DNA of 37,319 nt from Eubacteriales bacterium (GTDB lineage Bacteria; Bacillota; Clostridia; Lachnospirales; Lachnospiraceae): NCBI GenBank assembly GCA_030537135.1, contig JAUNOP010000028.1:1-37319 (forward strand), in the 5' to 3' direction. Within the stretch, counting starts at the first letter, position 1; the number at the start of each line of letters is the position of its first letter. Positions 7,655 to 37,215 of the stretch are shown here, one piece after another. The position numbers were made by a program, and so were the translations under genes. The notes under the pieces are model-generated. The model did not search any database. It saw only the letters and a program-made list of their open reading frames with translations, and was not told where the DNA came from.

Positions 7655-7725
7655 CACTTTTCCTCCTTCCTTATTTATTATCGCTATCTGCAGCTATTTT
7701 GCATCACCAGAGCCTCTGATGTCCG

Positions 7726-7757
7726 GCGCAGCTTATCCAATACCTGATAAGCTGCGC
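7726..7757 (-). other. Stem-loop between the MalG-type permease gene and malQ
   Basis: A perfect 12-bp stem, GCGCAGCTTATC (7726-7737) with its complement (7746-7757), has an 8-nt loop. No U tract follows on the minus strand. It is more likely an RNA-stability or processing element than a terminator. Confidence 0.45.
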
Positions 7758-7775
7758 ACATGCGCACACGGTCTG

Positions 7776-8612: not shown

Positions 8613-8614
8613 AA

Positions 8615-18241: not shown

Positions 18242-18649
18242 TTATTTATGATTTTTAATAATATCTGCCAATGTCACGCTGTCCGCATATTCATTGATTA
18301 CTCTCCACATCCCCTCCCAGAAAGGAAGTGTAAGGCATTCCTGGCTCCTGGTACAGCGGTTCGGATGATCCTCAATACACGCAATGGGTGCAAGACTTCC
18401 CTCAGCCGTTCGCAGAATATCTCCCATTGTATACTCCTTTGGGTTCCTGGCAAGCATATAGCCCCCATTATTCCCTCTGTAGCTTCTCACATAGCCGGCC
18501 TTTGTCAGAAGAGGCATAATCTGTTCGAGATACTTGATTGTAATTTCCTGCCTCTGCGATATTTCCTTGAGTCTTATATATTCTCCACAGTCATTCAATG
18601 CCAAGTCCACCATGATTCGTAATGCGTAGCGACCCTTTGTTGAAATCTT
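18242..18649 (-). CDS. Rrf2-family regulator, IscR-like with Fe-S cysteines
   Basis: A 135-residue transcription factor. It opens with the Rrf2 winged helix (MKISTKGRYALRIMVDLAL, then IKYLEQIMPLLTKAGYVRS and GNNGGYMLA). Three cysteines, C92, C100 and C106, stand in the loop where E. coli IscR binds its [2Fe-2S] cluster, so a cluster-sensing role is likely. The ATG at 18649 is chosen for GAGGTGA just upstream; the frame stays open 16 codons further. iscS and iscU do not follow, so its targets lie elsewhere. Confidence 0.92.
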   Translation of the reverse strand, partial: KISTKGRYALRIMVDLALNDCGEYIRLKEISQRQEITIKYLEQIMPLLTKAGYVRSYRGNNGGYMLARNPKEYTMGDILRTAEGSLAPIACIEDHPNRCTRSQECLTLPFWEGMWRVINEYADSVTLADIIKNHK

Positions 18650-18697
18650 CATCTGTATCACCTCACAATTGCTTTCTCCAAATATTTCCCCCATCAT

Positions 18698-18792: not shown

Positions 18793-18850
18793 CAAGCAAG
18801 CCCCCACCAACACTTATTTCTCTACGAAATTGAAGCGAGGGACTTTCCTG
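18793..18850. repeat. Intergenic repeat, family A, copy 2, running into mcrC
   Basis: CAAGCAAG, the 23-nt core (18813-18835) and GAGGGACTT follow in the same order as in the copy at 34314. The 3' half is diverged after ACTT. The part from 18822 onward is coding sequence for the last residues of McrC. Confidence 0.65.
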
Positions 18851-19883
18851 CTGCATCAAAGTACAGCTCTGCTATCTGGTTCAGCTGTCTTTTTATCTGG
18901 GAAAAATCTGCATTCAAATTCAAAGTTTTGGCACTGATCTGGTTGCCGCTCATAGAATAGGTATTATCCGGCAAAAGCGCCTCCTCTGTTCTTGCATACA
19001 GCAAAAGGCCGGCAACTTTGTGAGGCTTTCCTGCCAGCTCTGCCTCTTTGTTCTTGACATAGGCAAATATCTGATACAGATTGTCTGAATGAAGCTTATG
19101 CACTCCAAATCGCGTCTGTGTGGTATGAGAATAATACTTTGCATCTATAATCAATATATCGCTTCCTCTTGAGAGCATAACATCGCTCTGCATCACAGGC
19201 AGCAAATCCCCTGCTCCGTTGTCCAGCTTCCAGGCAATCTGAGACGGCTCTGCCTTTATGAAGGGAAACTCTTTTCTATAATACCCCAATATAAACTTCT
19301 CATACAGCCGGCTCATCTCCTGCTCATCCAGAAACTCCATAAGCCTCTCGGCTCCATCCTCCTGCTTCTGAAGCAGCCCTTTCAATACCAGACGGCAGAC
19401 AAAAATCAGCATCTGATAGGTCTGGTTGCCGCGGTTATATACAATTCTCCAGTTAATTCTATGAATATCCAGGGTATCCACCCCTTCAAGGAATACCATG
19501 GATTTTCTAAGATCCCGTTTTCTTTTGGAGGATATACGAGAGGAAAGCAGCACTCTTCCGGTTGTCTTGATAATCTGGTTCAGGTAAAAATCAACCGAAA
19601 ACTCGTCAAAAATACATACGAGCTGCTTTTTGCGAAGGCTCTGCGTCTTAATGGATTCTGAAATATTGATTTTTCCGCGAGGAACGCTCAAAAGCTCTGT
19701 TCTCTGTACATAGTCTCTTCCCAGCCCGCGCTTTACCTGCATGTCTAGTCCTTTTGCAAGAATAGCAGCCAAAAGCTCGCCTGTATTTTCAAATTTCTCG
19801 CAGGAGAGACTCTGGTATGTCTGTTCACGTAATACCTGAAACGCATATGCCAGCATATAATAAATGTTTTTTATCTTAATCAT
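18822..19883 (-). CDS. mcrC: McrC, nuclease subunit of a modification-dependent restriction system
   Basis: A 353-residue partner of McrB. The N-terminal beta-rich part (IKIKNIYYMLAYAF) is the McrB-contacting region. The C-terminal PD-(D/E)xK nuclease motif is intact: QSDVMLSRG followed by ILIIDAKYY. The ATG at 19883 overlaps the mcrB TGA as ATGA, typical translational coupling; an in-frame GTG at 19895 is a weaker choice. The last codons (KSLASIS and stop) lie within a family A repeat, so the natural C-terminus may have been altered. It is the last gene of the nine-gene run. Confidence 0.92.
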   Translation of the reverse strand: MIKIKNIYYMLAYAFQVLREQTYQSLSCEKFENTGELLAAILAKGLDMQVKRGLGRDYVQRTELLSVPRGKINISESIKTQSLRKKQLVCIFDEFSVDFYLNQIIKTTGRVLLSSRISSKRKRDLRKSMVFLEGVDTLDIHRINWRIVYNRGNQTYQMLIFVCRLVLKGLLQKQEDGAERLMEFLDEQEMSRLYEKFILGYYRKEFPFIKAEPSQIAWKLDNGAGDLLPVMQSDVMLSRGSDILIIDAKYYSHTTQTRFGVHKLHSDNLYQIFAYVKNKEAELAGKPHKVAGLLLYARTEEALLPDNTYSMSGNQISAKTLNLNADFSQIKRQLNQIAELYFDAAGKSLASIS

Positions 19884-21985
19884 CGAATTGCACACCGCAG
19901 GTTTTCACTCCAATCCCTTACCTTGACAGGCTCGTCAAACCAATATTCCTTTAGAAGAGGAATCAGCTCAAATTCCACCACTGACTGCATCCACTCTTCA
20001 TTAATAGTTGTTTTTGTGCAGAAATAGCTATGTCCGATTTGAAAGCCCTCTCTCAGAGATTCGTCTGCTGAAATGGCTTCATTGAGCTTTTCCACTGTCT
20101 GAATCAGCCTATCAAATTTTTTGTTGCCTGCTTTTGCGCGATACGCCCGAAAACCAGCGGACTGAAAGGCAGGAACAAATTCATAGAAGGCAAATCTGCG
20201 ACGCAGGGCATAGTCCAGCATAGCCAGACTTCTGTCCGCTGTGTTCATCATCCCAATAATATAAACATTATTAGGAATAGCAAACTGCTCATCCTTGTAC
20301 AGAAGCTGAAGTTCTACGCCTCTCTTGTCATTTTCAATGAGCATAAAGACTTCGCCGAAAATCTTACTAAGATTTCCCCTGTTTATCTCGTCAATAAGAA
20401 AAAAATATGGACGGTCGTCTTCCTCTGCCTGCTTGCAGAACTCATAAAAAACACCGTTTTTCAGTTCAAAGCCGTTTTCCTTTGGCCTGAAGCCCATAAT
20501 AAAGTCCTCATAGCTGTAGCTCTGGTGGAACTGCACCATCTTCACGCGGTTTGTGTCCTTTTCTCCCATAATGGAAAAGGCAAGGCGCTTGGCTGCAAAG
20601 GTTTTTCCAACTCCAGGCACTCCCTGAAGAATAATATTTTTCTTTGTTAAAAGAAGCCTGCATAAAATATCATACTGTTCCTCGCTAAGATACACGTCCT
20701 CAAGGAACTCCTCCTTTGAGTAGGGATCATAGGCATATTCCGGCTCCTCCCTGTCCGGGGCTGTCTCCAGAAACAAAGACAGAAGCTTTTTCACATATTC
20801 TGTGTAGCCTGTGATATCTGTGAGTGTTTTCATGGCAGCCTGCCCTGGATGCTCCCATTCTCCTTTGTCTGTCCAGTTTACCTGACGCACATTCCTATAG
20901 GTGCTTCTGCCCTCCTCATAGATATAATCACTGCTCACAGTCCCCTTTCCAATCACCTTGCTCATTCCCTGCTTGACAATGACAATATCTCCTATTTTCA
21001 TATCATTTACAAACTGCCATACAGCATGCACCTGATTTTTGAAGGAAGAATCTGTGCCTCTGATTTCCTGCAGCCGATTTCGTATCTCATCCTTTGTATT
21101 ATACTGCGACAGGTCGCCCATCTCGTCCCAGCCAATCGCCATAATTCCCTCTGCATAATCCTTTTCCCAATTTGCAGAATTGTCTCCTGCGGAATAGAGC
21201 CAATAATGAACAATATCCCTGCTCTCTGCAAGCGCATCGTCTGTTGTCTGCTCTGGAATGATTCCATCAAAAATATCGTCACCAAAGCTCACCTCTGCCG
21301 GACTCTGCTCCAGAAGCTTTCGGCAGCCCCGGAGAATGCTGTTGGATTTGTTTCCTGTTTTTTGATAATAGTAAAGAACATTATTTCTTACAGCCTGAAG
21401 GGCGTTTGTGTATGCCCTCTCTCCAAAATCCTCTCCGATTTTGCGGATAAAATACAGGGTAATGCTGGTATTTACTCTCCTCTTATAGTCCCTGCCGTCC
21501 ACCATACAGGCAAAGAGCATAATGGTTATCTTCAGGGAGGTGGCGCTGAAATATGAGATCCGTTCAGAGAGCTGCTTTACCGCCTCCTGAATATCCATCT
21601 CCCCCTCATAGACCCTTTTGCTGAAGCTATATAAAATCTCGTCTGCATCCAGTTCCATTCCAACGCGCGCCCTGATACTGCCGTATTTCTCATCTATATA
21701 TTTCTTGAGCATACAGAGATCCGCATAATACCCTTCGGTTCTCTGTTCGGCCTTATCAGACATCACATCATTTTTCAGATAATCGTAGATTTCCTTTTTT
21801 GCTTCCTGCATGGCCGCGTCCGACACAAGGCAGTCCCAGAAGCAGCCGACCAGGGTATTATTCCAGATGTAAAAGGCATCGGATACATGCGTTTTTACCG
21901 TGTTTTCCGCCCATTCGGGATGCTGCTCCTTCAAATATTCTCTATATTCATTTCGGATTTCATGTATTGTTTGTGATACCAGCAT
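19880..21985 (-). CDS. mcrB: McrB, GTP-dependent motor of a modification-dependent restriction system
   Basis: A 701-residue AAA+ GTPase. The N-terminal 250 residues are helical and unrecognised. A region at about 260-358 (HYWLYSAGDN, AIGWDEMGD, IGDIVIVKQG, VIGKGTV) resembles an EVE/PUA-like modified-base reader. The motor follows: Walker A GVPGVGKT (about 452), Walker B FFLIDEINRGN (about 529) and the McrB-type GTPase signature MNTADRS (about 580). The ATG at 21985 is preferred because AAGGAG lies 4 nt upstream; a frame open 28 codons further would overlap the AAA gene. With McrC it should cut DNA with modified bases; the exact modification is unknown. Confidence 0.9.
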   Translation of the reverse strand: MLVSQTIHEIRNEYREYLKEQHPEWAENTVKTHVSDAFYIWNNTLVGCFWDCLVSDAAMQEAKKEIYDYLKNDVMSDKAEQRTEGYYADLCMLKKYIDEKYGSIRARVGMELDADEILYSFSKRVYEGEMDIQEAVKQLSERISYFSATSLKITIMLFACMVDGRDYKRRVNTSITLYFIRKIGEDFGERAYTNALQAVRNNVLYYYQKTGNKSNSILRGCRKLLEQSPAEVSFGDDIFDGIIPEQTTDDALAESRDIVHYWLYSAGDNSANWEKDYAEGIMAIGWDEMGDLSQYNTKDEIRNRLQEIRGTDSSFKNQVHAVWQFVNDMKIGDIVIVKQGMSKVIGKGTVSSDYIYEEGRSTYRNVRQVNWTDKGEWEHPGQAAMKTLTDITGYTEYVKKLLSLFLETAPDREEPEYAYDPYSKEEFLEDVYLSEEQYDILCRLLLTKKNIILQGVPGVGKTFAAKRLAFSIMGEKDTNRVKMVQFHQSYSYEDFIMGFRPKENGFELKNGVFYEFCKQAEEDDRPYFFLIDEINRGNLSKIFGEVFMLIENDKRGVELQLLYKDEQFAIPNNVYIIGMMNTADRSLAMLDYALRRRFAFYEFVPAFQSAGFRAYRAKAGNKKFDRLIQTVEKLNEAISADESLREGFQIGHSYFCTKTTINEEWMQSVVEFELIPLLKEYWFDEPVKVRDWSENLRCAIR

Positions 21986-22025
21986 TTGTCTCCTTCCGTA
22001 CGTCCACGCCGTCTTCTCTTCTTTT

Positions 22026-23909
22026 CTATCTGCTTCTTCTGAGATAAGCCCGGAACATTTCCTCCTCAAATTCCGGAATCATGGATTCCATAAGAGGCGT
22101 AAGGAGCCGCTCCACGGCTGTGTCATAGTTTCCCATGTTTTCAATTTTTCCTTTGTGCAGAACAGTCTTTTTGCTGTCCCTGTCATAATCATAGCCGCTA
22201 TATATGGCCTGTCCTGTTGTTGACACAAAGCCCAGATTCAAAAGCTGAATATAGGTCTTGGCTATCTGAATACGATTTTCCTTTCCATCGCCATACACAT
22301 TGGTTTTCTTGAGGATTTCCTCGATCTTTTCCTTCATCTCCCATTTTGTAACAGACTCCCTGCTGTTTCTTCCTCTGTCTGTGGCTATCGCTGCCAGCGC
22401 TTCATTAACCAGCTTTTCTATGTCTGCTCCAGTCACGATTCTTGTCTGTCCCTGTGTGTCTGTTCCTGCAAAAAGCTCGACCAGCTCTCTTAAATCCCTT
22501 GTGTTTTTATGCCAGTCCTGCAAAAAGAGCTGCTTTCTCTTTTTTGCGTTTTTTTCCTTTTCTTCAAGCCTTACTCTCAGAATTTCTATACATTCCTCTT
22601 CTGTCGGCAGGTACATGGCATAGAGCCTGTCAAAACGCCCACTCCTGAAAAACTCTGAAGGAAGCCCTGTCAGGTCATTTGCAGTGGCAAAAATAAAGCA
22701 CGGCTTTGTCTTGTCCTGCATCCACCCCAGAAGCCGTGAGAACATCCTTTTAAAAGACCCTGAATCATTTTCATTTCCGTTTTTTGAGCCGCTGAAGGCC
22801 TTATCCAGTTCATCAATAAACAAAATGCAAGGAGCCATTGCCTCTGCTATTTCCAGCGCCTTCTGCATGTTGTGTTCAGATTCTCCCTGGTATTTTCCCA
22901 TCAGCATTCCCACGTCGAGCTTTAGCAGGGGCAGTCTTAATTTTTTTGCCGCAAACCTTGCTGCAAGAGACTTTCCACAGCCGGGAATGCCGCAGAGGAG
23001 GATTCCCTTTGGAATCTCTGTTCCAAAGGTCTCTCTTCTCCATCGCTCCTCTTTCATGGCAAAATCAATCTCTTCCACATATTCCTTGAGTCCCCTAAGA
23101 CCGCCGATTTGGGTTCGGACATTCTCTGTGTCCAGAAGCTCCAGGATCTCATTTCTCTTTATCACCTGCTCCTTTACCTGAAAGAGTTTTTTCTTGACAG
23201 CATTGCCGCTTGCAAGCTCACTGTCATCCATGAACTTGATACGGCGAACCATACGATAGACCTCGGTTCTGTTCAAGCCGCAAAAATCTGTAAAAAGAGA
23301 ATCATCGATCAGAAGAGACTGCAGCAAGGGACTTTCCTGAAACTCCTCCTCAATGATAGAGCGGATTTCCTCTTCTCTGGGAAGCTTTACATCAATATAT
23401 TCGGTGTATTGCTGCAGGAATTCGGGAATATAATTCTTCTCTGAATACAAAATCACAGCGCTTCGCCTGAGAATGCTGCCCTCAGGAGCCGCTGCATAGG
23501 CTCTCACATAGCTTTCCAGCCTCTCCAGATTCTTCTGGTTCTGCGAAAGCCGTAAGTCTCTGATGTCAAGCTCTTCACCGCGTGCAAGCGTCAGATGGCT
23601 GCAGTCCCATTTTAAAAATTCCAGAGGATTTGTCTCGTCCGGACTTAAAGAATTCTTTCCCGGAAGACTTCGATTCTCAAGACCCTCTGAATAATTCCAC
23701 GGAAGGGCCTTGGTCTGACTGTCATCGTAATCTACCAGCCCTCCGCTTTTGCTTCTCATTCTTCGCTGAACAATCTCATCCAGACTGACGAGCTGATGCA
23801 TCAGCTCTGTCTCATAGGTCCTCACATAAATAATCGGAATCCCGGCAAAGTATGCATTGCGGCAGTCTCTGCTAAGCTGTTCCAGCACAGTCAGATGCTT
23901 CTGTTCCAT
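22026..23909 (-). CDS. AAA+ ATPase of the Ycf46/FtsH-like type
   Basis: A 627-residue protein. The N-terminus (AYFAGIPIIYVRTYETELM) resembles the Ycf46 group, where a degenerate nucleotide-binding domain precedes a classic AAA module. The AAA module has Walker A GIPGCGKS (about residue 306), Walker B ILFIDELDKAF (about 364) and arginine finger RSGRFDRL (about 423). No protease motif or membrane segment is seen. A helical region of about 150 residues follows. AAGGAG stands 8 nt before the ATG. It begins 58 nt after the preceding gene and ends 40 nt before mcrB. It probably remodels another component of the operon. Confidence 0.85.
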   Translation of the reverse strand: MEQKHLTVLEQLSRDCRNAYFAGIPIIYVRTYETELMHQLVSLDEIVQRRMRSKSGGLVDYDDSQTKALPWNYSEGLENRSLPGKNSLSPDETNPLEFLKWDCSHLTLARGEELDIRDLRLSQNQKNLERLESYVRAYAAAPEGSILRRSAVILYSEKNYIPEFLQQYTEYIDVKLPREEEIRSIIEEEFQESPLLQSLLIDDSLFTDFCGLNRTEVYRMVRRIKFMDDSELASGNAVKKKLFQVKEQVIKRNEILELLDTENVRTQIGGLRGLKEYVEEIDFAMKEERWRRETFGTEIPKGILLCGIPGCGKSLAARFAAKKLRLPLLKLDVGMLMGKYQGESEHNMQKALEIAEAMAPCILFIDELDKAFSGSKNGNENDSGSFKRMFSRLLGWMQDKTKPCFIFATANDLTGLPSEFFRSGRFDRLYAMYLPTEEECIEILRVRLEEKEKNAKKRKQLFLQDWHKNTRDLRELVELFAGTDTQGQTRIVTGADIEKLVNEALAAIATDRGRNSRESVTKWEMKEKIEEILKKTNVYGDGKENRIQIAKTYIQLLNLGFVSTTGQAIYSGYDYDRDSKKTVLHKGKIENMGNYDTAVERLLTPLMESMIPEFEEEMFRAYLRRSR

Positions 23910-23967
23910 CCTCGCTTCTCCTTCTGTCTAAGGAAGAGTCAAAAAGCTTTTTGTCTCCTCCTGTGTC

Positions 23968-24738
23968 TCACTGATTCAAATATCTCTCTCTCATTTCCAT
24001 AAATGTTCTTCCAAGCTCCTGTCCCAGATGTTCATATTCCTGCGGTGTACATCCAGGAGTCGGATTGGTCAGAGTTCTCATAAGTTCTGCTGCATGCCCT
24101 GTCCGAAGCTCGCCCTCTATCTTCTCATAGGTTTCCCGTTTTTCTTTTTTTCTTCGCTCTGCGCGGGTGTTCCTGCCAAGGCTGCTCAAAATCTGTTCCA
24201 TCCTCCCTGCCCTCTTATATAAATCAGGCTCTGCTTCTATATTGATATGATTTTTTCTGAGATATTCCAGATATTCCTGTTTTCCCCAGCTTTCTTTTTC
24301 TTGTGTCTGTGGATCTGGCAGCTTCCTGAGAGCAGAATACAGAAAGCTAAGGCTTCCTCCAACCAACAGCTTCCTCATATCCTCTACAGAGCCTGCCGCT
24401 GCTCCCAGTTCTTCTCCCACAGCCCTCTCATAATGGCTCATGCATTCCAAAACGCCGCCCTCTCCTGCAAAAGCCTTCCTGTATGCTTCATTTCTTTCAG
24501 GCTCCAGGGACAGATATTCGTTCTGGCTGTCTATGCATTCCTGCAGGACAAGCTCATAATGCGCGTCTGCCTCTTCCTTTCCTCTTATACTGCCCGCCCG
24601 ATTTTTGGGGAGCGCTGCCTGTTTGTCTCTGAAGCGTTTGGAGCCTCTTGCTTTCTTTATGTAGTATACCATACAACCTACAACAACGGCAACTGCCAAT
24701 AAAATTCCCACATTTTTGAGCATATCTGACGTTTCCAT
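23968..24738 (-). CDS. Membrane-anchored unknown protein, paralogue of the 285-residue protein
   Basis: A 256-residue protein with one N-terminal membrane helix (NVGILLAVAVVVGCMVYYI, about residues 9-27) followed by a basic, helical cytoplasmic domain. The region around YRKAFAGEGGVLECMSHY aligns with YRKVFCDEGGVIDCMKRY of the protein encoded at 26971-27828, about 15 identities in 26 positions, and the similarity continues on both sides. I do not recognise the domain. GAGAGGTG stands before the ATG. It follows the Hsp70-like gene by 35 nt. Confidence 0.8.
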   Translation of the reverse strand: METSDMLKNVGILLAVAVVVGCMVYYIKKARGSKRFRDKQAALPKNRAGSIRGKEEADAHYELVLQECIDSQNEYLSLEPERNEAYRKAFAGEGGVLECMSHYERAVGEELGAAAGSVEDMRKLLVGGSLSFLYSALRKLPDPQTQEKESWGKQEYLEYLRKNHINIEAEPDLYKRAGRMEQILSSLGRNTRAERRKKEKRETYEKIEGELRTGHAAELMRTLTNPTPGCTPQEYEHLGQELGRTFMEMRERYLNQ

Positions 24739-24773
24739 ATACGCACCTCTCTGATTTTTCTTTGTCCAGGATT

Positions 24774-26807
24774 TCAGCCATAGAAAGCGATTCTGTCAAA
24801 GGCCTCTTCCAGCGCTCCGGCAATAAGCTCCTCCAGAGGAAGCTCTCCTGTCTGTCTTGCAGCTTCCATGCTTTTTTGTATTTCCGGACGAATGTTTGCC
24901 CTGAGCTTTTCCAGATATCCTTCCTGTGCTTTTTTCTGCATTTTTTTCCTCTTTCTGTCCGAAAGCTCTCTCTCATTAATATAATCTGAAACATAGTCTG
25001 ACAAATTTTTATTAAAAACACGGTCAAGGAGCATGAGCGGAACAAGAACAGCAATCGCCAGCACCATCTCAAGAGCATTTAAATTAAAGAGATCCGGCAT
25101 GGTAGAACTGCAAAGCTTTTGGGGCCTGCACCTGGCAATCAACGCCTGCCACGCTGTCTCATCCAATTGATAGGAATCCTTGTCAAGACGATTGCAGTAT
25201 ATTTTCTCCAGTTTTTTATTTACCTCCTCCTGAATGCTTTCCCTGCATTTTCCCATTGTCTCCCTGTAGCTTTCTGTCAGAAGCCGCTCTATTACAGAAG
25301 CCTGCACTCTCTCCTGATATGCAAGTCTGATTTGTGCCTTTAGATATGCTGTATTTCGCTTTCCCTGGGGTGTCTTCTCTGAAGATACCCATTGGTTCAT
25401 AATCTTCATTGCTTCCCTATAATAAATTTCTGCAATTTTTTCTGCCGCTGCATCAGAAAACCTTCCAAGCTCCTGTTCTATTCTGGGGCGCAGGGCTTTT
25501 TTCAGACTTTCCCTCACAGCCTCTGCATTCATATCATTAACAGCTGCCATGGCCAAGCCGCGCGATACGCTAAGGGACGGTTCATCCGAGCGTTCCACTG
25601 AAACCGCGCCATAGCCATAAGCCTTATCAAGCTCCCTCTGACAAATCTCCCTGATAAATCCCATCTTGCTGGCGCCGCCTGTCAGAATGACTGCCTGGCA
25701 GGCGCATTTTGCACTCTTCATTTCCTGTATGATTTCCCGGACAAATTTCTGGCAATGTCCTGCCCAGCAGTCTACGTCTCCGCTGCTTCTCAGCGCGAAT
25801 TTTTCTGCATTTTCCCCACAAACACTGCCTGTAATACTGCCGACAACTCTTTCCATAAACTCTTCGTCAATGTGGACGCTGATATTTTCCTTAAGCTTCT
25901 TTATCTTCTTTCCTGTCTTTTGATTTGCTGTTTCCAGAACATTTCCCATACTGTCTGTATCATAAATCTGTATCACGCTGGTATCAATCATCTCGTGATT
26001 GTAAAACAGCTCCTTTATTCTGCGGAACGTCCACTTATAATAAAGCTTCTGTTCCAGGGACAAATAAGACAGGTCATAACCTGCGTCCTTCAGAACCTTT
26101 TCCAGCATCATCCTTTCAATTTCTGAAGCTCCAAGCCGCCAGCTCTTCTCAATCGGCTCCTTTCCTGTCTGCATCCAGGTCGCATCTGCTGTGGAAGAGC
26201 CAAAGTCCAGCACCAGAATTCCTCTGTTCATGTACAGGCTTCGTTTCTGTGCAACATTAATAAAAGCCGCTCTGGATTCTGGAAGTATGACTACCCTGGT
26301 CTCTGGAATATACTTTTCTGCTGCCTCCTGAATCATATCTGCATACTCCCTCTTATGAGACAGCCATTCCTCCTCTGAGGATGGGCAGCCGACAAGCAAA
26401 AGCAGCTTTTCTTCTGTGCCCGTAAAGTATCCTTTATTGTTTTCCATCACGACCTTAATCAGCTCTGCCAGAAAATCCTGCATGAGCTTCTTTTTGGTTC
26501 TTCCGCATACATTGTCATCAAAATATTGGGGGCTGTCCTTAAAATAATAAATACACCCCTCTTTTCCTGCTGCCTGCCTTCCAATCGTAATACTGTCGCC
26601 CTCATATCGGATTGCCGTAGGAATAATCAGATTTTCATTGTCAAATACCAAATCCTTGTTCTGGCTTCCCACGCCTCCCTTATCTACATTGCATATAGAA
26701 CACTGTCCATGGCCAAAATCCAAAGCCAGAATCACAACATCCTCTAAAAGCTTCCAGGTGTCTTTGTCCCTGAATTCTGAAATATCAAATCCATTCCACA
26801 AGCTCAT
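24774..26807 (-). CDS. Hsp70/actin-fold ATPase with a C-terminal hydrophobic segment
   Basis: A 677-residue protein. The N-terminal 400 residues have an actin/Hsp70 nucleotide-binding fold: phosphate loop 1 LALDFGHGQ (about residue 26), phosphate loop 2 VLDFGSSTADAT (about 200) and the adenosine motif LTGGASKMGF (about 371). The second half does not look like the DnaK substrate-binding domain: it is helical, with a hydrophobic stretch ALEMVLAIAVLVPLMLL (about 577-593) and a very charged tail. It may be membrane-associated. The ATG at 26807 lies close behind GGAGGAGG and GAAGGA. It sits between two paralogous genes, which are likely partners. Confidence 0.85.
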   Translation of the reverse strand: MSLWNGFDISEFRDKDTWKLLEDVVILALDFGHGQCSICNVDKGGVGSQNKDLVFDNENLIIPTAIRYEGDSITIGRQAAGKEGCIYYFKDSPQYFDDNVCGRTKKKLMQDFLAELIKVVMENNKGYFTGTEEKLLLLVGCPSSEEEWLSHKREYADMIQEAAEKYIPETRVVILPESRAAFINVAQKRSLYMNRGILVLDFGSSTADATWMQTGKEPIEKSWRLGASEIERMMLEKVLKDAGYDLSYLSLEQKLYYKWTFRRIKELFYNHEMIDTSVIQIYDTDSMGNVLETANQKTGKKIKKLKENISVHIDEEFMERVVGSITGSVCGENAEKFALRSSGDVDCWAGHCQKFVREIIQEMKSAKCACQAVILTGGASKMGFIREICQRELDKAYGYGAVSVERSDEPSLSVSRGLAMAAVNDMNAEAVRESLKKALRPRIEQELGRFSDAAAEKIAEIYYREAMKIMNQWVSSEKTPQGKRNTAYLKAQIRLAYQERVQASVIERLLTESYRETMGKCRESIQEEVNKKLEKIYCNRLDKDSYQLDETAWQALIARCRPQKLCSSTMPDLFNLNALEMVLAIAVLVPLMLLDRVFNKNLSDYVSDYINERELSDRKRKKMQKKAQEGYLEKLRANIRPEIQKSMEAARQTGELPLEELIAGALEEAFDRIAFYG

Positions 26808-26828
26808 CTTCCTTCGGCCCTCCTCCAA

Positions 26829-26970
26829 AGCTTATTTGTGCTGTTTTTTTCTATTCGTATCTGGTCAGTATCTCCGCAGATACGGGCGAAAATCTGATCA
26901 AGCGGAAATTCGCACTACCCACAGGATGCAACGTCCGCTTTGCTGCCTGCTCATAATCATATGGCTGATC
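26829..26970. repeat. Within-operon gap with a family B repeat, copy 2
   Basis: The segment 26897-26955 (ATCAAGCGGAAATTCGCA, then TCCGCTTTGCTGCCTGCTCATA) matches family B with an extra 18-19 nt in the middle. It folds as AAGCGGA (26900-26906) with TCCGCTT (26934-26940). A second 7-bp hairpin, GTATCTG (26857-26863) with CAGATAC (26877-26883), lies beside it. Neither has a terminator tail. Confidence 0.5.
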
Positions 26971-27828
26971 TTAGCTCTCATATTCGAGTTCTATTAATAT
27001 TTCATGAAATATGCTATCTACCTTCTGGGCAATTTTGAGATATGTCCTCATTGCGCACTCTTCTTCTGCAGTCTCTAATTCCGAATCCTCTAATTTTAAT
27101 TGTTTGAAATATACCTTCATTTCATCACTTTCGAGCCTTTTCCTCACAGCCTCATATTTTTTTCGGTTTTTCCGCTTTTTTTCCTCTGCTTTTATGTTTT
27201 TATTACAGGTATTTAAAATCTCCTCTAATCTGGATGGTTCCAGCCGTACTGCACTTGCCTTTAAATACTTTCGATATTCTGCAATACTGTCAAACATGGT
27301 CTCTTTTCTTTCGTCTGCTCTCTCAAGCTGCTTCAGCGCATAGCTGAGATACTGCAGATTGCTTCCCCATAAAATATATTTCATGGAAGAGAGACTCTGC
27401 GCAAAGACAAGCTCATTCTCTACTAGCCTGTGATATCGCTTCATACAGTCTATCACGCCGCCCTCATCGCAAAATACCTTTCTGTAAAAATCGTTTTTTC
27501 CCGGTTCATATCCAAGATACGTATTGTAGAGCTTCATACAGCGCTCAAGCTGGTTCTCCAGCTCCAGTCTTTTTTTTCTCTTCTGAGCGTCTCCCATTTT
27601 CCTGTCATTTTCTATTAGACGCTTCATGAGCTGGCTGGGCTTTCCCTGGGTCTGCCTCGCATATTCGCGAAACATACTCATGGCATGCTGCATATCGCTT
27701 TCAAATTGCTGCCTTGAAAGACCTCCTCCCTTTTGCCTGTCTAATAAAGAAGCCTGTCCCTTGTCTAAGCCCAGAAGATTTCCGATATCCTTTGCCAGAC
27801 TTTTTCTCTCGCTAAAATCCTGCGCCAA
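26971..27828 (-). CDS. Unknown helical protein, soluble paralogue of the membrane-anchored 256-residue protein
   Basis: A 285-residue charged helical protein with no membrane segment. The first 80 residues (LGLDKGQASLLDRQKGGGLS and an Arg/Gln-rich helix) are unique. The central domain, about 90-175, matches the protein encoded at 23968-24738, including YRKVFCDEGGVIDCMKRY. The start is TTG at 27828, directly after the stop of the previous gene, with AAGGGGG 7 nt upstream. I do not recognise a function. The two proteins may form a pair, one soluble and one at the membrane, around the Hsp70-like protein. Confidence 0.78.
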   Translation of the reverse strand: MAQDFSERKSLAKDIGNLLGLDKGQASLLDRQKGGGLSRQQFESDMQHAMSMFREYARQTQGKPSQLMKRLIENDRKMGDAQKRKKRLELENQLERCMKLYNTYLGYEPGKNDFYRKVFCDEGGVIDCMKRYHRLVENELVFAQSLSSMKYILWGSNLQYLSYALKQLERADERKETMFDSIAEYRKYLKASAVRLEPSRLEEILNTCNKNIKAEEKKRKNRKKYEAVRKRLESDEMKVYFKQLKLEDSELETAEEECAMRTYLKIAQKVDSIFHEILIELEYES

Positions 27829-29130
27829 TTAAAATCCCCCTTCCGATAAGGCAATCGCTGTGTCTTGCCTTGTGTATAACGACTTGAAAGCCAGAGGAGA
27901 ATTGCTTATAATTCCCCCGTCCCTTTTTAAGAAGAAATAGTATCCGTCCTCTATCCAGGTCTCTACTACTTCTGTTTTTCTGTCCTTCTCATGATTAAGC
28001 ACATTGTCAAAGTAAATCATGTCCTCCATCACATATTCCAACAGAATTTTTCCATCCTGTACTGCCAAGAAGCCCCCCTTGCCGTCAGCGGCAAAGCTCG
28101 TAATCCCCCTGCACTGTTCCTCTGACCATTCCCTGACAGGCTTGTCTCCTCTGTGAGGATTTTGATCTCTGTGAAAGAGCAGAAGGCGCAAGTCTCCCTT
28201 TCCAGGCCGCAAAATAATATCCTCCCTGTTAAAACTCATATAAGGGAGAACCCGCAAAACGGTTCCTCCCCTTGTTACCAGTATATCACAGAATTCGCCT
28301 TCCTTTAGCACGATTCTTTTCACTTCTGTCTCTTTTTCCTGCCTGTCCGTACAAAAGCAGACAGTTACAGGCTCTGCTGTGCTTCCGTCTCTCCTATACA
28401 GCCGTTTCAGCCGAATAGGCGCCTTCTTATAAAGTTCCTGTCCATTATCTGTCAGCAAAAGATATGGCATGGAATTTTCCAGAGGAAGGAGTTCAATTTC
28501 ACTCTCTTCTCCTGTCAGGCGGTTTATCATATGCTGCGAAAATCTTCTTTCTCCCTCCATACCATTCAAAAACAGCTCCAGTCTCTGAAATTCCACAGGA
28601 TATTCTTCATACAGAAGCTCGAACCGGCAATAAAGAGCGGTCAGCATATAAAAAAGCCACTGCTTTCTATTCTCCTGAATCCGGGACTTTTCCACTTCTC
28701 TGAAAATGCTTCTTTTGTTTTTGGCACAAATCCAGTAAGGGTATTCGGGATTTTTTTCTGATATTATGGCAGGTGTTTGTTCGTATTTTCTGATTTTTGC
28801 ATTGAGGAATCCAAAGATCTTTTCCTCTGTCGGCTTAAAGCCACTTGCATTTTTGTCTGAGAACATATTGGGTTCCAGATTTCCCATATCCTCAGGATTT
28901 CTCTTTTCCTTCAAAATATAATCCAAATAGTCATTCCTGCACTTGAGCATAGGAGGAAGCAGGCTAACGCCCGCTTCCTTTGTTTCCTGCTCAATAAAGG
29001 CAAGCATCCTGTCCCATTGCTTATGAAATTCTGTAAAATCCAGGAACTTCCTGTCTGTTACATATTTTTTCACATCCTTCCTGTTATTTACAGGCTTTCC
29101 TCCCAGCTTCCACGGTTCTCTAATCATCAT
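27829..29130 (-). CDS. Unknown 433-residue protein of the McrBC-associated operon
   Basis: A soluble protein without signal peptide or membrane helix. The first 200 residues are helical and rich in aromatic and charged residues (CRNDYLDYILKEKRNPED, YWICAKNKR). The second half looks beta-rich, with repeated phrases such as GGFLAVQDGKILLEYV and GYYFFLKRDGGII that recall beta-propeller blades. I found no catalytic motif. Two adjacent ATG codons can start it (29130 or 29127); AGGGG is just upstream. It begins 14 nt after the preceding gene and abuts the next one, so it clearly belongs to the operon. Confidence 0.75.
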   Translation of the reverse strand: MMIREPWKLGGKPVNNRKDVKKYVTDRKFLDFTEFHKQWDRMLAFIEQETKEAGVSLLPPMLKCRNDYLDYILKEKRNPEDMGNLEPNMFSDKNASGFKPTEEKIFGFLNAKIRKYEQTPAIISEKNPEYPYWICAKNKRSIFREVEKSRIQENRKQWLFYMLTALYCRFELLYEEYPVEFQRLELFLNGMEGERRFSQHMINRLTGEESEIELLPLENSMPYLLLTDNGQELYKKAPIRLKRLYRRDGSTAEPVTVCFCTDRQEKETEVKRIVLKEGEFCDILVTRGGTVLRVLPYMSFNREDIILRPGKGDLRLLLFHRDQNPHRGDKPVREWSEEQCRGITSFAADGKGGFLAVQDGKILLEYVMEDMIYFDNVLNHEKDRKTEVVETWIEDGYYFFLKRDGGIISNSPLAFKSLYTRQDTAIALSEGGF

Positions 29131-29144
29131 CTGCCCCTGCTCTT

Positions 29145-30635
29145 TTACTCTGTCACATAGTCTCTCTCTGCATACAGTTCCATATTCTCTTCTGCTTCTT
29201 CGTTCTCTTCTGTTTCTTTTCCTGTATTCTCCTCTGCCTCCAGAGCCATTTCTTCTGTATCCTCTTCGGCTGCCAGAGCTTCCTCTGCCTCCTCTTCGAC
29301 TTCCAGGGTCAGCTCTTCTTCTCTATCTTCTTCGGCTGCCAGATTCGGCTCTTCTTCTCTATCCTCCTCGGCTGCCAGAGCTTCCTCTGCCTCCTCTTCG
29401 ACTTCCAGAGTCAGCTCTTCTTCTCTATCTTCTTCGTTCGCAGCTTTTGTCTCTTTGTCTGTGTTCTCCTCTTCCATGCATTCCTCTGCCTGACATTTTC
29501 TCTGTACCCTTGCATTTATCCTTGTTCTTATGCGCTCTGCATATTCCAAAGCCTTTTCTCTTGCCCATGCAAAGAATTCTCTTATTTTATCTATTCCAGA
29601 TTTCAGAAGCTCAAAGCTGAAGGAAACAAACTCTCCAAATGCATCTGCCGTGTCTCTCACAACATTGTCCATAAAGCCGTCGGCAAGTGTATCTGAGAAC
29701 TTAAAGCCGTATTTGATTACCCAATAGCCAAGACTCATGACCATAATAACGGAAAGAATCGACGTCATCACACTGCCGAACACAATGGCAATCACCTTAA
29801 AGCCGATCTCTGCCGCAACAATGACCAGCCTTGTCATTGCCACAATTCCAATCACTTCCAGAGTAAACCTAGCAATCTTCCATGCAATGCTGCCCTCTTC
29901 TGCTGCCTGCACTGTCTTGCTGCTTTCATACATTGCGCAAACCATGATTGTGAGTTCGTCCAGAGTAACCTCTGACGGAACCTCGTCCAGCTTTCCTTCC
30001 TTTGCCGCAATATATGCCGCCATTGTCGTCACTGCAAGCAAATCCCGTTCTTTATCTTCCTCATATTCATATTCTGCTCCTTGTGTGTCTCCCATGCTCT
30101 CTGAAGCATACTCAATCATACTCTGTGTGAGCTTCTGCATTAATGCACTGTTGTGAAGTATCAGTTCCTTCAAGGCCTTTTTCAGTTCTTCCTCACAGCT
30201 CTCGTCTGCCGCCTGCCCAGGTACGTAGATGCGCTCCAGCCTTTGCATAAACTCTTCCACATCATACTCAGGAATGATTTCCTTAATTGCCTGCGCATAT
30301 TCCCTTGCCATATCATAGAAAGCTTCGCAGGCCTCTGCCGTGGTTTTGCCTGCCACTGTCCTGGTCAGACTTTCTTCTACCCAGGTCTCCGGGTTCTCCT
30401 CTGCCTGAGCCAGTGCTTCATAAAAGCTGTCGATTCCCATATAAATACGCTCCACCATCATCTCGCCCTGACTCTCTTCCTTGTCTGGCAGATGTGTGAC
30501 ATATGCAAAAATCATTCTGTCGCGGGCAGAGCGCTTCTCCTCTGGACTGCCCTGCTCAGTCTGTATTCCTTCTGCATTTATTTCTTCTACCAGACTCTTG
30601 ATTTCCTTCATTTCCTTATCATTGAATGTTCTCAT
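29145..30635 (-). CDS. Membrane protein with an acidic repeat tail, unknown function
   Basis: A 496-residue protein in three parts. Residues 1-250 are helical and acidic (MRTFNDKEMKEIKSLVEEIN). Residues of about 255-315 are hydrophobic with two or three membrane helices (ARFTLEVIGIVAMTRLVIVA, VFGSVMTSILSVIMVMSLGY). An amphipathic helix and a basic stretch (RIRTRINARVQRK) follow. The last 110 residues are almost only Glu, Ala, Leu and Asp and include a 34-residue repeat. Such tails are disordered and may bind basic partners or metal. AAAGGAG precedes the ATG. It is the second gene of the operon, 89 nt after the HTH-like gene. Confidence 0.78.
   Translation of the reverse strand: MRTFNDKEMKEIKSLVEEINAEGIQTEQGSPEEKRSARDRMIFAYVTHLPDKEESQGEMMVERIYMGIDSFYEALAQAEENPETWVEESLTRTVAGKTTAEACEAFYDMAREYAQAIKEIIPEYDVEEFMQRLERIYVPGQAADESCEEELKKALKELILHNSALMQKLTQSMIEYASESMGDTQGAEYEYEEDKERDLLAVTTMAAYIAAKEGKLDEVPSEVTLDELTIMVCAMYESSKTVQAAEEGSIAWKIARFTLEVIGIVAMTRLVIVAAEIGFKVIAIVFGSVMTSILSVIMVMSLGYWVIKYGFKFSDTLADGFMDNVVRDTADAFGEFVSFSFELLKSGIDKIREFFAWAREKALEYAERIRTRINARVQRKCQAEECMEEENTDKETKAANEEDREEELTLEVEEEAEEALAAEEDREEEPNLAAEEDREEELTLEVEEEAEEALAAEEDTEEMALEAEENTGKETEENEEAEENMELYAERDYVTE
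29261..29436. repeat. Tandem 102-bp coding repeat in the acidic tail
   Basis: A 74-bp unit at 29261-29334 recurs at 29363-29436 with two differences; the period is 102 bp, or 34 codons. The encoded unit includes EEDREEELTLEVEEEAEEAL. The 28 bp between the units is a shorter, related copy. Near-identity at DNA level points to recent duplication and probable length variation between strains. Confidence 0.8.
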
Positions 30636-30724
30636 AAAAATCTCCTTTCCAGGCTTGTCTCTTTGTTTTCTGCAACCATTTTACTTCACGAACTTCCGCA
30701 AAAGGAAGCATTTTGTGAGACATT

Positions 30725-31279
30725 TCAGGAATCGCATCTGTATATGTTCTGAAACCTGCGTCCCTTTCCATTTTCTGTTTTTGAAAAATATTCCAGAATC
30801 TCATATATATCCTCTGGGGCATAAATATTATTGCGCATGCATGCCACAATCACTCTGTCACGAAAATCATAATAATTCAAGCTATTGGATGCTTTTGCCA
30901 TAAGCTCGTTCGATTCCTCTGGCGTCAGCTTCAGTCCAATCACGATTTTCAGGAGAGTCTCCTTGCCCGGCTGATTTCCGGTATGATCCTCAGACCATAT
31001 TCTTAGATGCGACCATGTGGTTTTTGAAATTCTTGCATACTCATAAAATCCCGCATAGTCAAGCTTGCCGCTTTTTTTCACAAATCTTTTCTCAAAAAGC
31101 CATCCCTCCAATACCTGGAAAAAGCTTTTCTCTGGCTCAAAGTCTGCAATCATTTGGCTTATCCTCTGATATTTATCATCTGATTCCTGATTTTTCTTAA
31201 ATATTTTCTCTGCATTCTTCTTTGCCAGAAGATTCAGCGTCTCTTCCATGTAATACAGCTTCTGTCTGTCCTTCGCCAT
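30725..31279 (-). CDS. Helix-turn-helix-like protein, first gene of the McrBC-associated operon
   Basis: A 184-residue helical protein. Residues of about 78-135 (GFYEYARISKTTWSHLRIWS, then KETLLKIVIGLKLTPEESNE) resemble an XRE-type helix-turn-helix with its usual LTPEE turn. A helical C-terminal domain follows (RDRVIVACMRNNIYAPEDIYEIL). The N-terminal 60 residues look like a coiled coil. GGAGGTGAGAAA precedes the ATG. As the first gene of the run it is a candidate regulator or a DNA-sensing component. The assignment to a helix-turn-helix is by pattern only. Confidence 0.72.
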   Translation of the reverse strand: MAKDRQKLYYMEETLNLLAKKNAEKIFKKNQESDDKYQRISQMIADFEPEKSFFQVLEGWLFEKRFVKKSGKLDYAGFYEYARISKTTWSHLRIWSEDHTGNQPGKETLLKIVIGLKLTPEESNELMAKASNSLNYYDFRDRVIVACMRNNIYAPEDIYEILEYFSKTENGKGRRFQNIYRCDS

Positions 31280-31853: not shown

Positions 31854-31875
31854 AGCGAAAGGAATGATAGAAAAT

Positions 31876-34200
31876 ATGAAAAAAAGCATCGAACATTTGG
31901 GAAAAAGGGAATGTTATGGATGCAGTGCCTGCCAGCACACCTGTCCTGTGAAGGCTATAGACATGAAACAGGACAAGGAAGGCTTTGGGTATCCAGTAGT
32001 AAATAACGATTTATGTATAGAATGCGGCAAATGCACAAGGGTATGTCCGTCTATTCAAGGAAAAAAGACAGATAACACTTCAAAGCCAGAGTGTTATGCC
32101 CTCCAAGCACCTGATTCCGTGCGAAAATCTGGCAGTGCTTCTGGAGGAGCCTTCGTACTTCTAGCAGAAGCCATTTTAGAACAGGGTGGGGTTGTGTGTG
32201 GTGTAGTGATGGATAAACAATTCAAAGTATACCATACAATTGTAGACAATAAGCAAGCTCTGCAGCCCCTTAGAGGTTCCAAGTACGTTCAAAGCGATTT
32301 GAGACAGGTATTCCCTGAAATCAAAAAATATTTGAACAAAGGAAAAAAAGTATTGTTTACTGGAACTCCCTGTCAGGTTGCAGGACTAAAAAACTATATA
32401 GGAAGCAATCCTGAAAATCTGCTCACCGTAGATTTAGTATGTCATGGCCCTACCTCTCAATTGGTATTTGAAAGGTATCTGGAAGAAAATTTCGGGAAAG
32501 AAAACGTAGAAAAATTCCTGTTCCGTCCAAAGGCTTACGGTTACAATGGCGTAACCTGCGAGGTTACGCTGAAAAACGGCAAAAAATATGTAGGGCACAA
32601 GGACTTCGATGTTCTGGAGCAGGGTCTTTTTCATTCCCTGTGCCTTAGACAGACCTGCGAAAATTGCGTCTATGCAGAGCTTCCCAGAATCGGAGATTTT
32701 ACCATGGGAGATTTCTGGGGCCTGCGCTTCTATAAACCAGAGCTTACCAGCCCCCTTGGGACCTCCGTGCTGTTGGTGAACAATGAAAAAGCCAGAGATT
32801 TTCTCAAGCTGATAGCGCCCAAATGTAAACTGCTGGAGCAAACTCCTTTCAAGGCCGCTCTCAGAAACCGTTTTCGCAGCCAAGGACATGCTCATCCTGA
32901 AAGAGAGCGTTTCTTTGAAATGCTCTCCTACACTACAATGAACAAAGCCGTTACTTACTGTATGCACAGGCGCTACGATGTCGGCATTCTGGGAATCTGG
33001 TATGGAACCGGCTACGGCAGCATTGCCACCTACTATGGTCTGGCAAAGGTTTTAGAAAAAATGGGACTCTCTGTTCTTATGATAGAAAAACCAGGAATCC
33101 AAAAAGAGGAAAAGCAACTTCAGGCAGAAAGACCTTCCAGAATTTTTGCAGAGAAACACCTTCATGTAAGTTCTTCCTATTCCCTAGAAAATATGCACAT
33201 GCTCAACCAGATATGTGATATTTTCGTTGTCGGCTCCAACCAGGTATGGAATTATGGCGTAGGAAAAAGCGCTGGAAGAAGCTTTATGCTGGATTTTGCG
33301 CGAAATGAAAAAAAGAAGATCTCCATTGCTTCCTCATTTGGACACAGTGTTGACTTCAGAGGAGAATTGGATCAAATTATAGACAGAATGTTCCTGAAGC
33401 AATTTGACGCTGTCTCTGTTCGCGAGGATTCTGCCGTAGGATTGTGCAAATCCATTTTTGGAGTACAGGCCGAACGCATACTGGATCCTGTTTTTCTGGC
33501 AGGTCGGCAGATCTACGATTCTCTGACCCGAAAGCTTTCTATTCCGGAATCAGAGCCTTATATCTTCAGCTATATCCTGGATCCTACTCCTGAAAAGGAA
33601 CAGGCGCTGGAATATATTAGGAAAAAAACCGGAAAAAAGGTTATCACTGTTTTTGGCGAAAGCTATGCGCCCGGTATGGAAGAAAACTGGGGCAGTATTC
33701 CTGAAAATATTTCCTTCCCTGAGTGGATAAATCACGTAAAGAACAGCAGCTATATTTTCACGGACTCCTGTCAGGGAATGAATTTCTCTGTGCTATATCA
33801 AAAACCATTTGTTATAGCTGGAAATCTTAGAAGAGGAATGACCCGTTTCCACTCATTCCTAAAGCTGATTCATCTTGAGAATCATCTTCTGAAAAATCCG
33901 ACAGATATTAAAACAAAGGAAGGTTTGCTGGATTCTATAGACTATACAGAAATCAACCGTATTCTGAAAAAGGAAAAGGAACGCTCACTCAAGTGGATTC
34001 ATAATGCTGTCTTTTCGCCGAAAGTCACGACTGAATATCAGGTTTTTGATGCAGAAATTACTTCTCCGTTTTCCGTGCAGGACAAGCATGTGCCAGAAGA
34101 CAGCTATTATAAAAGAAACCTGCCTGTAAAAATTATTCAGAAAATACGCAGAAAATCCCAAAGTCTGCTTGAGGATGGAAAGATTCCTTTCCGCAAATAA
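31876..34200 (+). CDS. Fusion: [4Fe-4S] ferredoxin/FrhB-like domain plus polysaccharide pyruvyl transferase
   Basis: A 774-residue two-part protein. Residues 1-60 hold two [4Fe-4S] motifs (CYGCSACQHTCP and CIECGKCTRVCP). Residues of about 65-355 match the coenzyme F420 hydrogenase/dehydrogenase beta-subunit family (SGSASGGAF, LFTGTPCQVAGLK, CENCVYAELPRIGDFTMGDF); in bacteria without F420 this flavoprotein probably acts on another substrate. From about 366 a WcaK/CsaB-type pyruvyl transferase follows (YDVGILGIWYGTGYGSIATY, VVGSNQVWNYGVG, FTDSCQGMNF), which adds pyruvate ketals from PEP to surface glycans. An earlier ATG at 31864 sits right against the AAAGGA, so the ATG at 31876 is preferred, though its spacing is long. 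Confidence 0.9.
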   Translation: MKKSIEHLGKRECYGCSACQHTCPVKAIDMKQDKEGFGYPVVNNDLCIECGKCTRVCPSIQGKKTDNTSKPECYALQAPDSVRKSGSASGGAFVLLAEAILEQGGVVCGVVMDKQFKVYHTIVDNKQALQPLRGSKYVQSDLRQVFPEIKKYLNKGKKVLFTGTPCQVAGLKNYIGSNPENLLTVDLVCHGPTSQLVFERYLEENFGKENVEKFLFRPKAYGYNGVTCEVTLKNGKKYVGHKDFDVLEQGLFHSLCLRQTCENCVYAELPRIGDFTMGDFWGLRFYKPELTSPLGTSVLLVNNEKARDFLKLIAPKCKLLEQTPFKAALRNRFRSQGHAHPERERFFEMLSYTTMNKAVTYCMHRRYDVGILGIWYGTGYGSIATYYGLAKVLEKMGLSVLMIEKPGIQKEEKQLQAERPSRIFAEKHLHVSSSYSLENMHMLNQICDIFVVGSNQVWNYGVGKSAGRSFMLDFARNEKKKISIASSFGHSVDFRGELDQIIDRMFLKQFDAVSVREDSAVGLCKSIFGVQAERILDPVFLAGRQIYDSLTRKLSIPESEPYIFSYILDPTPEKEQALEYIRKKTGKKVITVFGESYAPGMEENWGSIPENISFPEWINHVKNSSYIFTDSCQGMNFSVLYQKPFVIAGNLRRGMTRFHSFLKLIHLENHLLKNPTDIKTKEGLLDSIDYTEINRILKKEKERSLKWIHNAVFSPKVTTEYQVFDAEITSPFSVQDKHVPEDSYYKRNLPVKIIQKIRRKSQSLLEDGKIPFRK

Positions 34201-34313: not shown

Positions 34314-34377
34314 CAAGCAAGTCCCCCGCTTATTTCTCTGCGAAATTGAAGCGAGGGACTTGCTTGATACGTTAAAA
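34314..34377. repeat. Intergenic repeat, family A, copy 3 (best palindrome)
   Basis: A perfect 12-bp inverted repeat, CAAGCAAGTCCC (34314-34325) with GGGACTTGCTTG (34355-34366), continues inward as CGCTT/AAGCG and ATTTC/GAAAT around a TCTGC loop. It then ends in CTTGATACGTTAAAA. The TAA stop of the minus-strand gene (34372-34374) lies inside this last box. Confidence 0.75.
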
Positions 34378-37212: not shown

Positions 37213-37215
37213 CAC

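Follow-up and report, generated by a model that had tools for sequence, protein, structure and literature searches.

A seven-gene ASKHA/AAA+ module and an ordinary McrBC system in one gene run of a Lachnospiraceae contig: a reading as two units

Introduction

The systems closest to the gene run considered here are the published nucleoside triphosphate (NTP)-dependent conflict systems, the CoCoNuT systems, ordinary McrBC restriction and, where an ATPase is linked with a protease, FtsH and IetAS. The run consists of nine minus-strand genes on a 37-kb contig, one of the 103 contigs of a Lachnospiraceae draft genome (GenBank GCA_030537135.1, contig JAUNOP010000028.1); the whole contig, 37,319 nucleotides (nt) in length, is referred to as the window. 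Seven of the genes, among them those of an Hsp70-like ATPase, an AAA+ ATPase and a 2TM protein, are called the module, and the last two encode McrB and McrC. The run is best read, with a probability of about 0.55, as two units, a conserved and co-inherited seven-gene module and an ordinary McrBC type IV system. The module is apparently undescribed, scattered through gut bacteria and probably membrane-associated.

GTPase-centred systems are the subject of Kaur et al. (2020; PMC7159879); some contain HSP70, in one case lacking the peptide-binding domain. The same work treats MoxR-vWA systems in which FtsH-type ATPases or propellers occur. The module shares with these systems a constant NTPase core, membrane components and variable extras, and a DO-GTPase2 is found in two of its relatives. 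It differs from the DO-GTPase and MoxR-vWA systems in that the window AAA+ protein is CDC48/FtsH-like, not MoxR; in Pfam none of the nine window proteins matches a DO-GTPase or a vWA domain, and none of the seven module proteins matches MoxR. No Pfam match named GAP1 was returned for the window or for the scanned proteins of one relative (L055; loci are numbered with L, genomes with G), the presence of a GAP1 model in the library being unconfirmed. Because one relative genus has a DO-GTPase and two loci have HerA/FtsK-like ATPases, the module is similar to the published NTP-dependent conflict systems but falls outside their definitions. A DO-GTPase family protein is also mentioned in envelope-stress operons in PMC11237479.

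In the CoCoNuT paper (PMC11090510) Hsp70 domains are fused to McrB or McrC, and McrB has an NxD motif. The window likewise brings McrBC and an Hsp70-like protein together, and one type III-A extension of CoCoNuT has a CDC48/SpoVK-like AAA+ protein; the Hsp70-like protein of the window is, however, a separate 684-amino-acid (aa) gene, and its association with McrBC is seen in one genome only. Membership of the CoCoNuT or NxD McrBC group, as delimited there, is ruled out by the NxxD motif (MNTAD) of the window McrB and by the lack of an Hsp70 fusion.

The likeness to FtsH lies in an FtsH-like AAA+ protein with a zincin nearby in most module relatives. Unlike FtsH, the module has these in separate genes and adds ASKHA, 2TM and propeller-like proteins, and the window copy has no zincin; the AAA+ protein itself matches no protease family in Pfam or NCBIfam, where FtsH models align to the AAA part alone. 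The anti-phage system IetAS, whose protease is subtilisin-like, has an AAA ATPase beside a protease, as do most module copies. IetA models are the best PADLOC matches of the AAA+ protein (5e-24), but it fails the IetA equivalog of NCBIfam (IteA; 75.5 bits against a cut-off of 510), and IetAS has no ASKHA or 2TM genes. The literature searched, a scope that left most subscription papers outside, holds no description of the gene set and does not contradict the original prediction, which knew of no such system.

Results and discussion

McrBC as a probably separate unit

The nine open reading frames (ORFs) are found where the original prediction had placed them, in the order helix–turn–helix (HTH)-like, 2TM, unk1, unk2, Hsp70-like, mp2, AAA+, McrB and McrC. 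The gaps computed from the ORF coordinates are, in gene order, 89, 14, 0, 142, 35, 58 and 40 nt, and the stop codon of McrB overlaps the ATG of McrC in an ATGA. The Hsp70-like gene may start with a TTG at 26828 or an ATG at 26807, the latter turning the 142-nt gap into one of 163.

McrC matches PF10117 (1.3e-35) and lies above the cut-off of the NCBIfam McrC model, and its SDV...IIDAK stretch fits, by eye, the PD-(D/E)xK pattern. McrB matches AAA_5 in Pfam (2.8e-23) and solved McrB (1.4e-87), and it carries a Walker A motif (GVPGVGKT) and the NxxD motif given above. The region before its GTPase domain does not align to solved E. coli-type McrB; in the longer McrB ORF (19880-22069), residues 289-416 match the PADLOC family PDC-S02 (2.9e-20), which we take to be possibly an EVE-type base reader. 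As judged from these matches the pair is a canonical type IV restriction system, to which both subunits correspond fully, with nothing essential differing.

The core of the module recurs elsewhere without these two genes. Its AAA+ gene was found in 23 further loci from Lachnospiraceae, Oscillospiraceae, other Clostridia and Bacteroidales. A labelled Hsp70-like gene is present in 20 of the 23, and 13 contain the AAA+, Hsp70-like, 2TM and unk1 genes together, frequencies which argue that the grouping is not due to chance; the window carries all four of these core genes in one run. McrB or McrC is found in 0/23. Within the genus McrC is matched in 8 of 64 genomes, 7 of them strongly (the window and six others at 46-60% identity); the eighth, weak match (G235) was left out of the neighbour reading. 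In the stretches of 7.8-19.6 kb read at the six other McrBC loci, none of the window's module genes is matched at E 1e-10, and this result and the 0/23 tally together rule out McrBC as a constant partner of the module.

The original prediction had joined the chaperone-type ATPases and McrBC in one system; its alternative was a seven-gene membrane/chaperone module which McrBC follows as separate cargo. The tabulation of neighbours, set beforehand as the test of that unity, gives the module AAA+ without McrBC in 23/23 other loci and so largely refutes the joint system and favours the alternative. One integrated nine-gene defence system, for which the common strand, the short gaps and the ATGA overlap speak, is therefore very improbable, as McrBC also occurs independently in the genus.

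Base composition was considered as a mark of separate origin and rejected, since neither GC content nor GC content at third codon positions (GC3) differs clearly between McrBC and the module. An assembly error joining two unrelated pieces, conceivable for a locus on a single contig of a draft genome, is hardly credible: the GC values agree (0.437-0.445 for McrBC, 0.400-0.467 for the module), the join sits in a normal 40-nt intergenic gap and the downstream flank is typical of the genus. There a 254-aa gene at 17217 is present in 62 of the 64 genus genomes, and at least one of the window's downstream-side genes is kept around it in 11 of the 12 relatives read (not in L125); on its other side the genes of these 12 relatives do not match the window. 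An empty insertion site was compared on the SseB side only, and the other boundary was not found.

Distribution and gene order of the module

A search with the Hsp70-like protein alone gave matches in 5 of 200 family genomes and 13 of 64 genus genomes, own included; in the matched genomes, read with the window proteins, module neighbours are seen solely in G105 (locus L020). The Hsp70-like genes of 12 other genus species were considered as the same module and rejected, as they form a different ASKHA group without recognised module neighbours in 13 stretches. This separate group (12 of the 63 other genus genomes; L007-L019 and L024-L036) has proteins of about 636-669 aa, one of 758, with one AAA-like match (in L036) and a 280-304-aa gene directly upstream in 8 of the 13 stretches.

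When the 2TM protein was searched as a two-row profile, 7 of 397 family genomes matched. The AAA+ gene lies nearby in G000, G105, G343, G316 and G161, giving five confirmed genomes; the G047 match was left out of the neighbour reading and the stretch read in G397 contains no module gene. With a six-row profile 2 of 392 order genomes are matched (the window's own and, weakly, G651), and a single one of the 64 in the genus. Among the small genera to which other carriers belong, the 2TM family is present in 2/2, 3/3, 3/3 and 2/3 species; in G775 and G776 the genes lie on short contigs (5.4 and 6.6 kb) that have no AAA+. Given these low family and genus counts beside all or most species of four small genera, the module is patchy across the family, yet steady within some small genera. 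In the genus g162, an HTH-like gene and a tandem pair of 2TM genes recur in three species (L074, L075, L047); to judge from the short contigs, AAA+ adjoins them only in G161.

In a search of genome contigs the single Hsp70-like protein confirmed no module locus, and an alignment of four Hsp70-like proteins returned 75 loci. The module AAA+ is present in 20 of these, and two others (L134, L152) combine Hsp70-like and unk1 genes without it. The module AAA+ was not found in the other 53, 40 of them cyanobacterial by title, and no module part besides the Hsp70-like protein was labelled there except a zincin in L155, with a few radical-SAM-type or McrB-like cross-hits. The tally of 25 loci consists of the 20 with AAA+, L134, L152, and L020, L055 and L072 from whole genomes; L138 and G772:C3, and likewise L183 and G316:C94, are very probably the same records, and each was counted once. 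Phages searched with the 2TM protein gave no match, and among the 1015 plasmid records returned with the AAA+ protein none covers 80% of the query. Plasmids searched with the Hsp70-like protein gave one distant match from Calothrix; this relative (L050:10821-12743) lies on a conjugative plasmid and is flanked on either side, within 4 kb, by integrase genes.

L140, L141 and L150 show the complete Clostridial order: HTH, 2TM, unk1, p310, Hsp70-like, AAA+, zincin and p130. AAA+ precedes the Hsp70-like gene in L135-L137, the Bacteroidales copies are rearranged and several loci hold duplicated module subunits. The HTH-like family clusters in 10 and the 2TM family in 17 of the 22 loci compared. For unk1, the window protein aligns (hhalign 97.8%, E 1.3e-12) to a family of 11 loci, which aligns in turn to the form in L020, L055 and L072 (91.8%).

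Proteins of the module

The AAA+ protein contains a domain of the PF00004 family (7.4e-28) with Walker A (GIPGCGKS) and Walker B (ILFIDE) motifs, and a 17-row profile of its family finds CDC48/p97 as the best match (1.8e-56). Its N-terminus may resemble plastid Ycf46. Among the protein labels of the original prediction those of McrB, McrC and AAA+ hold, and that of the Hsp70-like protein holds by profile; alone, this protein has no Hsp70 match in Pfam. DnaK/BiP is matched once homologues are added to the profile, at 4.4e-10 with two of them and at 4.3e-5 with 18 (19 rows), in both cases over the nucleotide-binding domain. As the Pfam matches of the 19 members (E up to 0.05) are split between MreB_Mbl (9) and HSP70 (3), ‘ASKHA ATPase’ is the safer label. 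Conserved stretches include DFG, DFGSST and LTGGASKM. The C-terminal part of about 250 aa contains one hydrophobic segment (583-601); neither the profile rows shown nor Pfam gives a match past the nucleotide-binding domain that would correspond to a substrate-binding domain.

Four proteins, 2TM, unk1, unk2 and mp2, have no Pfam or NCBIfam family above cut-off and no PADLOC match. Unk2 and mp2, helical partners of roughly 300 aa, are paralogues (1.8e-24), mp2 having a hydrophobic N-terminal helix that unk2 lacks, and the two align to the p310 family of other loci (hhalign 65% probability, E 5.9e-5 over 83 columns). The tail of the 2TM protein (residues 385-496) is 49% D/E. Its AlphaFold2 model is all-helical (predicted local distance difference test score 68.6), and a fold search with it gave no confident match, the best (E 0.065) being to designed helical bundles, which is uninformative. 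Tested against SLATT, only the L020 homologue matches SLATT_4, weakly (17.4 bits against a cut-off of 27), and the window 2TM protein has no SLATT match in Pfam. The C-terminal region of unk1 carries propeller-like repeats; its profile found nothing in the PDB. The HTH label is without Pfam or NCBIfam support; the protein has homologues in L020 (1.5e-07) and G777 (3e-32).

The zincin companion and variable extras

A zincin is encoded in 19 of the 23 AAA-bearing loci, and most other copies of the module have with it a small partner, p130. In 11 loci (L138-L141, L147-L151, L183 and L190) the zincin directly follows AAA+ among the ORFs of that strand. Across 12 aligned rows the family has an invariant HExxH followed by invariant N, Y and E, and the two members scanned have no Pfam family above cut-off. 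The window copy lacks the zincin/p130 pair and has McrBC 40 nt behind AAA+; a search of its own genome, made without a positive control, gave no zincin match.

Other extras vary between loci. G343 has the DO-GTPase2 (PF19993, 29.2 bits against a cut-off of 27), with an orthologue in G773 of the same genus (7e-179). One HerA/FtsK-like ATPase lies inside the L208 run (L208:12020-14797) and another (L147:249-3521) precedes the first module gene at a distance of 3.6 kb, separated from it by three ORFs. In L134, from an Enterocloster bolteae metagenome-assembled genome, an unk1-like domain carries an extra N-terminal part, HD-like by eye (7088-9169); this fusion adjoins the closest Hsp70-like homologue (47% identity), with no AAA+. 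An HtpG (Hsp90)-like gene, so labelled by eye, lies downstream of the 2TM gene in G343 (L045:9038-11146).

Co-inheritance and possible horizontal spread

The distance matrices of AAA+, Hsp70-like, 2TM, unk1 and zincin proteins are correlated in all ten pairs (r 0.84-0.93), and none of 2000 permutations in a Mantel test gives any of these values, each pair being represented by 9 to 16 loci. Besides the window, 15 of the 23 loci were sampled (all but L020, L055, L072, L142, L146, L149, L190 and L208), and the r values hold for this core group, as the most diverged loci are among those omitted. As shared species history alone can produce such correlated distances, they support one inherited unit rather than protein contact. 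Identity to the window is 14-38% in the 15 loci. In a quick tree of 22 AAA rows, with Shimodaira–Hasegawa-like approximate likelihood ratio support only and several long branches, the window's included, the Lachnospiraceae copies are dispersed among Oscillospiraceae copies, and some horizontal spread of the module would therefore fit.

Evidence weighing against two units

Several observations tell against the reading as a conserved module followed by a separate McrBC. The 23 loci include near-copies or rows of the same group (L148/L149/L190; L144-L146; L055/L072; L135/L136) and amount to about 17 independent groups, and a common history of the species can explain their co-inheritance. The window unk1 and the L020/L055 form are linked through intermediates only, scoring 1.9% when compared directly (hhalign), and the paired genes of about 300 aa in L020, L055/L072 and L056 match neither unk2/mp2 nor p310 (hhalign 0.1-2.1%). 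No labelled zincin is found in 4/23 loci (L020, L135, where the contig ends, L136 and L143), the zincin profile finds nothing in the PDB below E 0.64, and a membrane helix is present in one of the two zincin copies tested. The 40-nt gap between AAA+ and McrB contains no minus-strand terminator-like site, which makes one transcript likely here; McrBC is probably co-transcribed with the module, yet not its fixed partner. Promoter and terminator scans neither support nor refute a single transcript, as shuffled sequence gives equal counts (23 observed against 21.0, and 12 against 11.1).

Finally, McrBC occupies a position where the zincin is often found, which would also fit an effector swap: the module would be a regulated conflict system with interchangeable outputs, in which McrBC replaced the zincin pair and is licensed by the ASKHA/AAA+ core. 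The place and distance of McrB behind AAA+, the own genome without a zincin match and the differing extras of other loci (DO-GTPase2, HerA/FtsK-like ATPases and the HD-like fusion) are consistent with it. The adjacency of module and McrBC is nevertheless confined to one genome, the six genus relatives have McrBC with no module genes nearby, and McrB, with a recogniser and a GTPase of its own, does not depend on another ATPase. On balance a swap is distinctly unlikely.

Possible function of the module

For the module as a unit of its own, a mechanism can be proposed. The 2TM protein and mp2 would hold a complex at the membrane, where unk1 and the ASKHA ATPase may recognise a signal or client. 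ATP-driven switching could then pass the client to the AAA+ ring for unfolding or remodelling, after which, in most genomes, the zincin would cut it; the 2TM protein is a possible membrane-acting output. The whole would be an FtsH-like machine split over separate genes, with an Hsp70-type ATPase added.

Whether such a machine would serve defence or conflict stands about even. The patchiness, the divergence, the duplicated subunits and the varied extras make a defence role plausible; against it stand the steady presence in four small genera and flanks that are not obviously defence islands. The flanks were scanned, with no control set, against PADLOC and Pfam, using 130 proteins from 148 flank ORFs of at least 150 aa in 19 loci (L149 and L190 were left out as near-copies), the matches given being the 25 commonest families. 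Among these, Pfam gives Dynamin_N in 4/130 and EcsC in 3/130 proteins; PADLOC matched 102 families, and many of the 25 listed are cross-hits of one UvrD helicase (L137). PDC-S01 (6.9e-140) and mREase_IV (5.8e-72) are each matched strongly by one protein, neither of which was located among 20 of the 130 proteins scanned singly. A kinase-like flank protein of L148 matches PD-T4-6 models (1e-27).

The main rival, a housekeeping or envelope-stress machine that would carry out quality control of membrane proteins or regulated proteolysis under stress and have no anti-phage role, is tenable though less probable. An Hsp70-type ATPase, a CDC48/FtsH-like AAA+ protein and a zincin follow the logic of protein quality control, the 2TM family is steadier in the small genera than expected of defence genes, and the flanks are not obviously defence islands. 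The otherwise very patchy distribution (1/64 in the genus, five confirmed of 397 in the family), the low identity to the window, the duplicated subunits, the dispersed Lachnospiraceae AAA copies and the two strong PADLOC flank matches speak against it.

A new class of immune machine, with a membrane Hsp70-type switch and CDC48/FtsH-like ring, a propeller-like sensor, a 2TM effector and interchangeable outputs (zincin, DO-GTPase, HerA/FtsK-like, HD and here McrBC), is an unlikely but consequential extension. If true, a chaperone-type ATPase pair at the membrane would license a modification-dependent nuclease, of which we know no earlier case. Should the preferred reading as two units hold, gut Clostridia and Bacteroidales would carry a multi-NTPase membrane module with four family-less proteins, in which two chaperone-type motors and mostly a zincin are joined in one operon, and ASKHA/AAA+ proteins as immune or envelope switches would become testable in cultured gut bacteria. 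A common McrBC would at the same time be set apart from a false system call.

Features of the window and neighbouring genes

Table 1. Genes of the nine-gene run and an adjacent regulator (window positions)
Feature	Position	Strand	Remarks
HTH-like small protein, 184 aa	30725..31279	-	first gene; family common to other module loci
2TM protein with acidic C-terminal tail, 496 aa	29145..30635	-	hydrophobic stretches 271-289 and 293-311
unk1, 433 aa	27829..29130	-	variable N-terminus; C-terminal beta-propeller-like region
unk2, 285 aa	26971..27828	-	mp2 paralogue; may correspond to p310 in other loci
Hsp70-like (ASKHA) ATPase, 684 aa	24774..26828	-	profile matches to DnaK/BiP
mp2, membrane-anchored unk2 paralogue, 256 aa	23968..24738	-	one hydrophobic helix at 9-27
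AAA+ ATPase, 627 aa	22026..23909	-	N-terminal part (about 250-300 aa) and AAA domain of the CDC48/FtsH-like type
McrB GTPase subunit, 701 aa from ATG	19880..21985	-	separate unit; solved McrB match
McrC nuclease subunit, ATG start	18822..19883	-	separate unit; PF10117
Rrf2/IscR-like regulator (label by eye, ORF only)	18242..18697	-	counted in neither unit

Beside the module in other loci, related large proteins are seen in L136, L141 and L147, the L147 copy matching LeoA, and a family of proteins of about 280 aa forms arrays in L136, L137 and L143. In the window, the large neighbouring genes at 31864-34200 and 34372-37215, which we take to be of the polysaccharide pyruvyl transferase type, share the motif YDVGILGxWxGxxYGSIATYY, placed inside one protein and near the start of the other.

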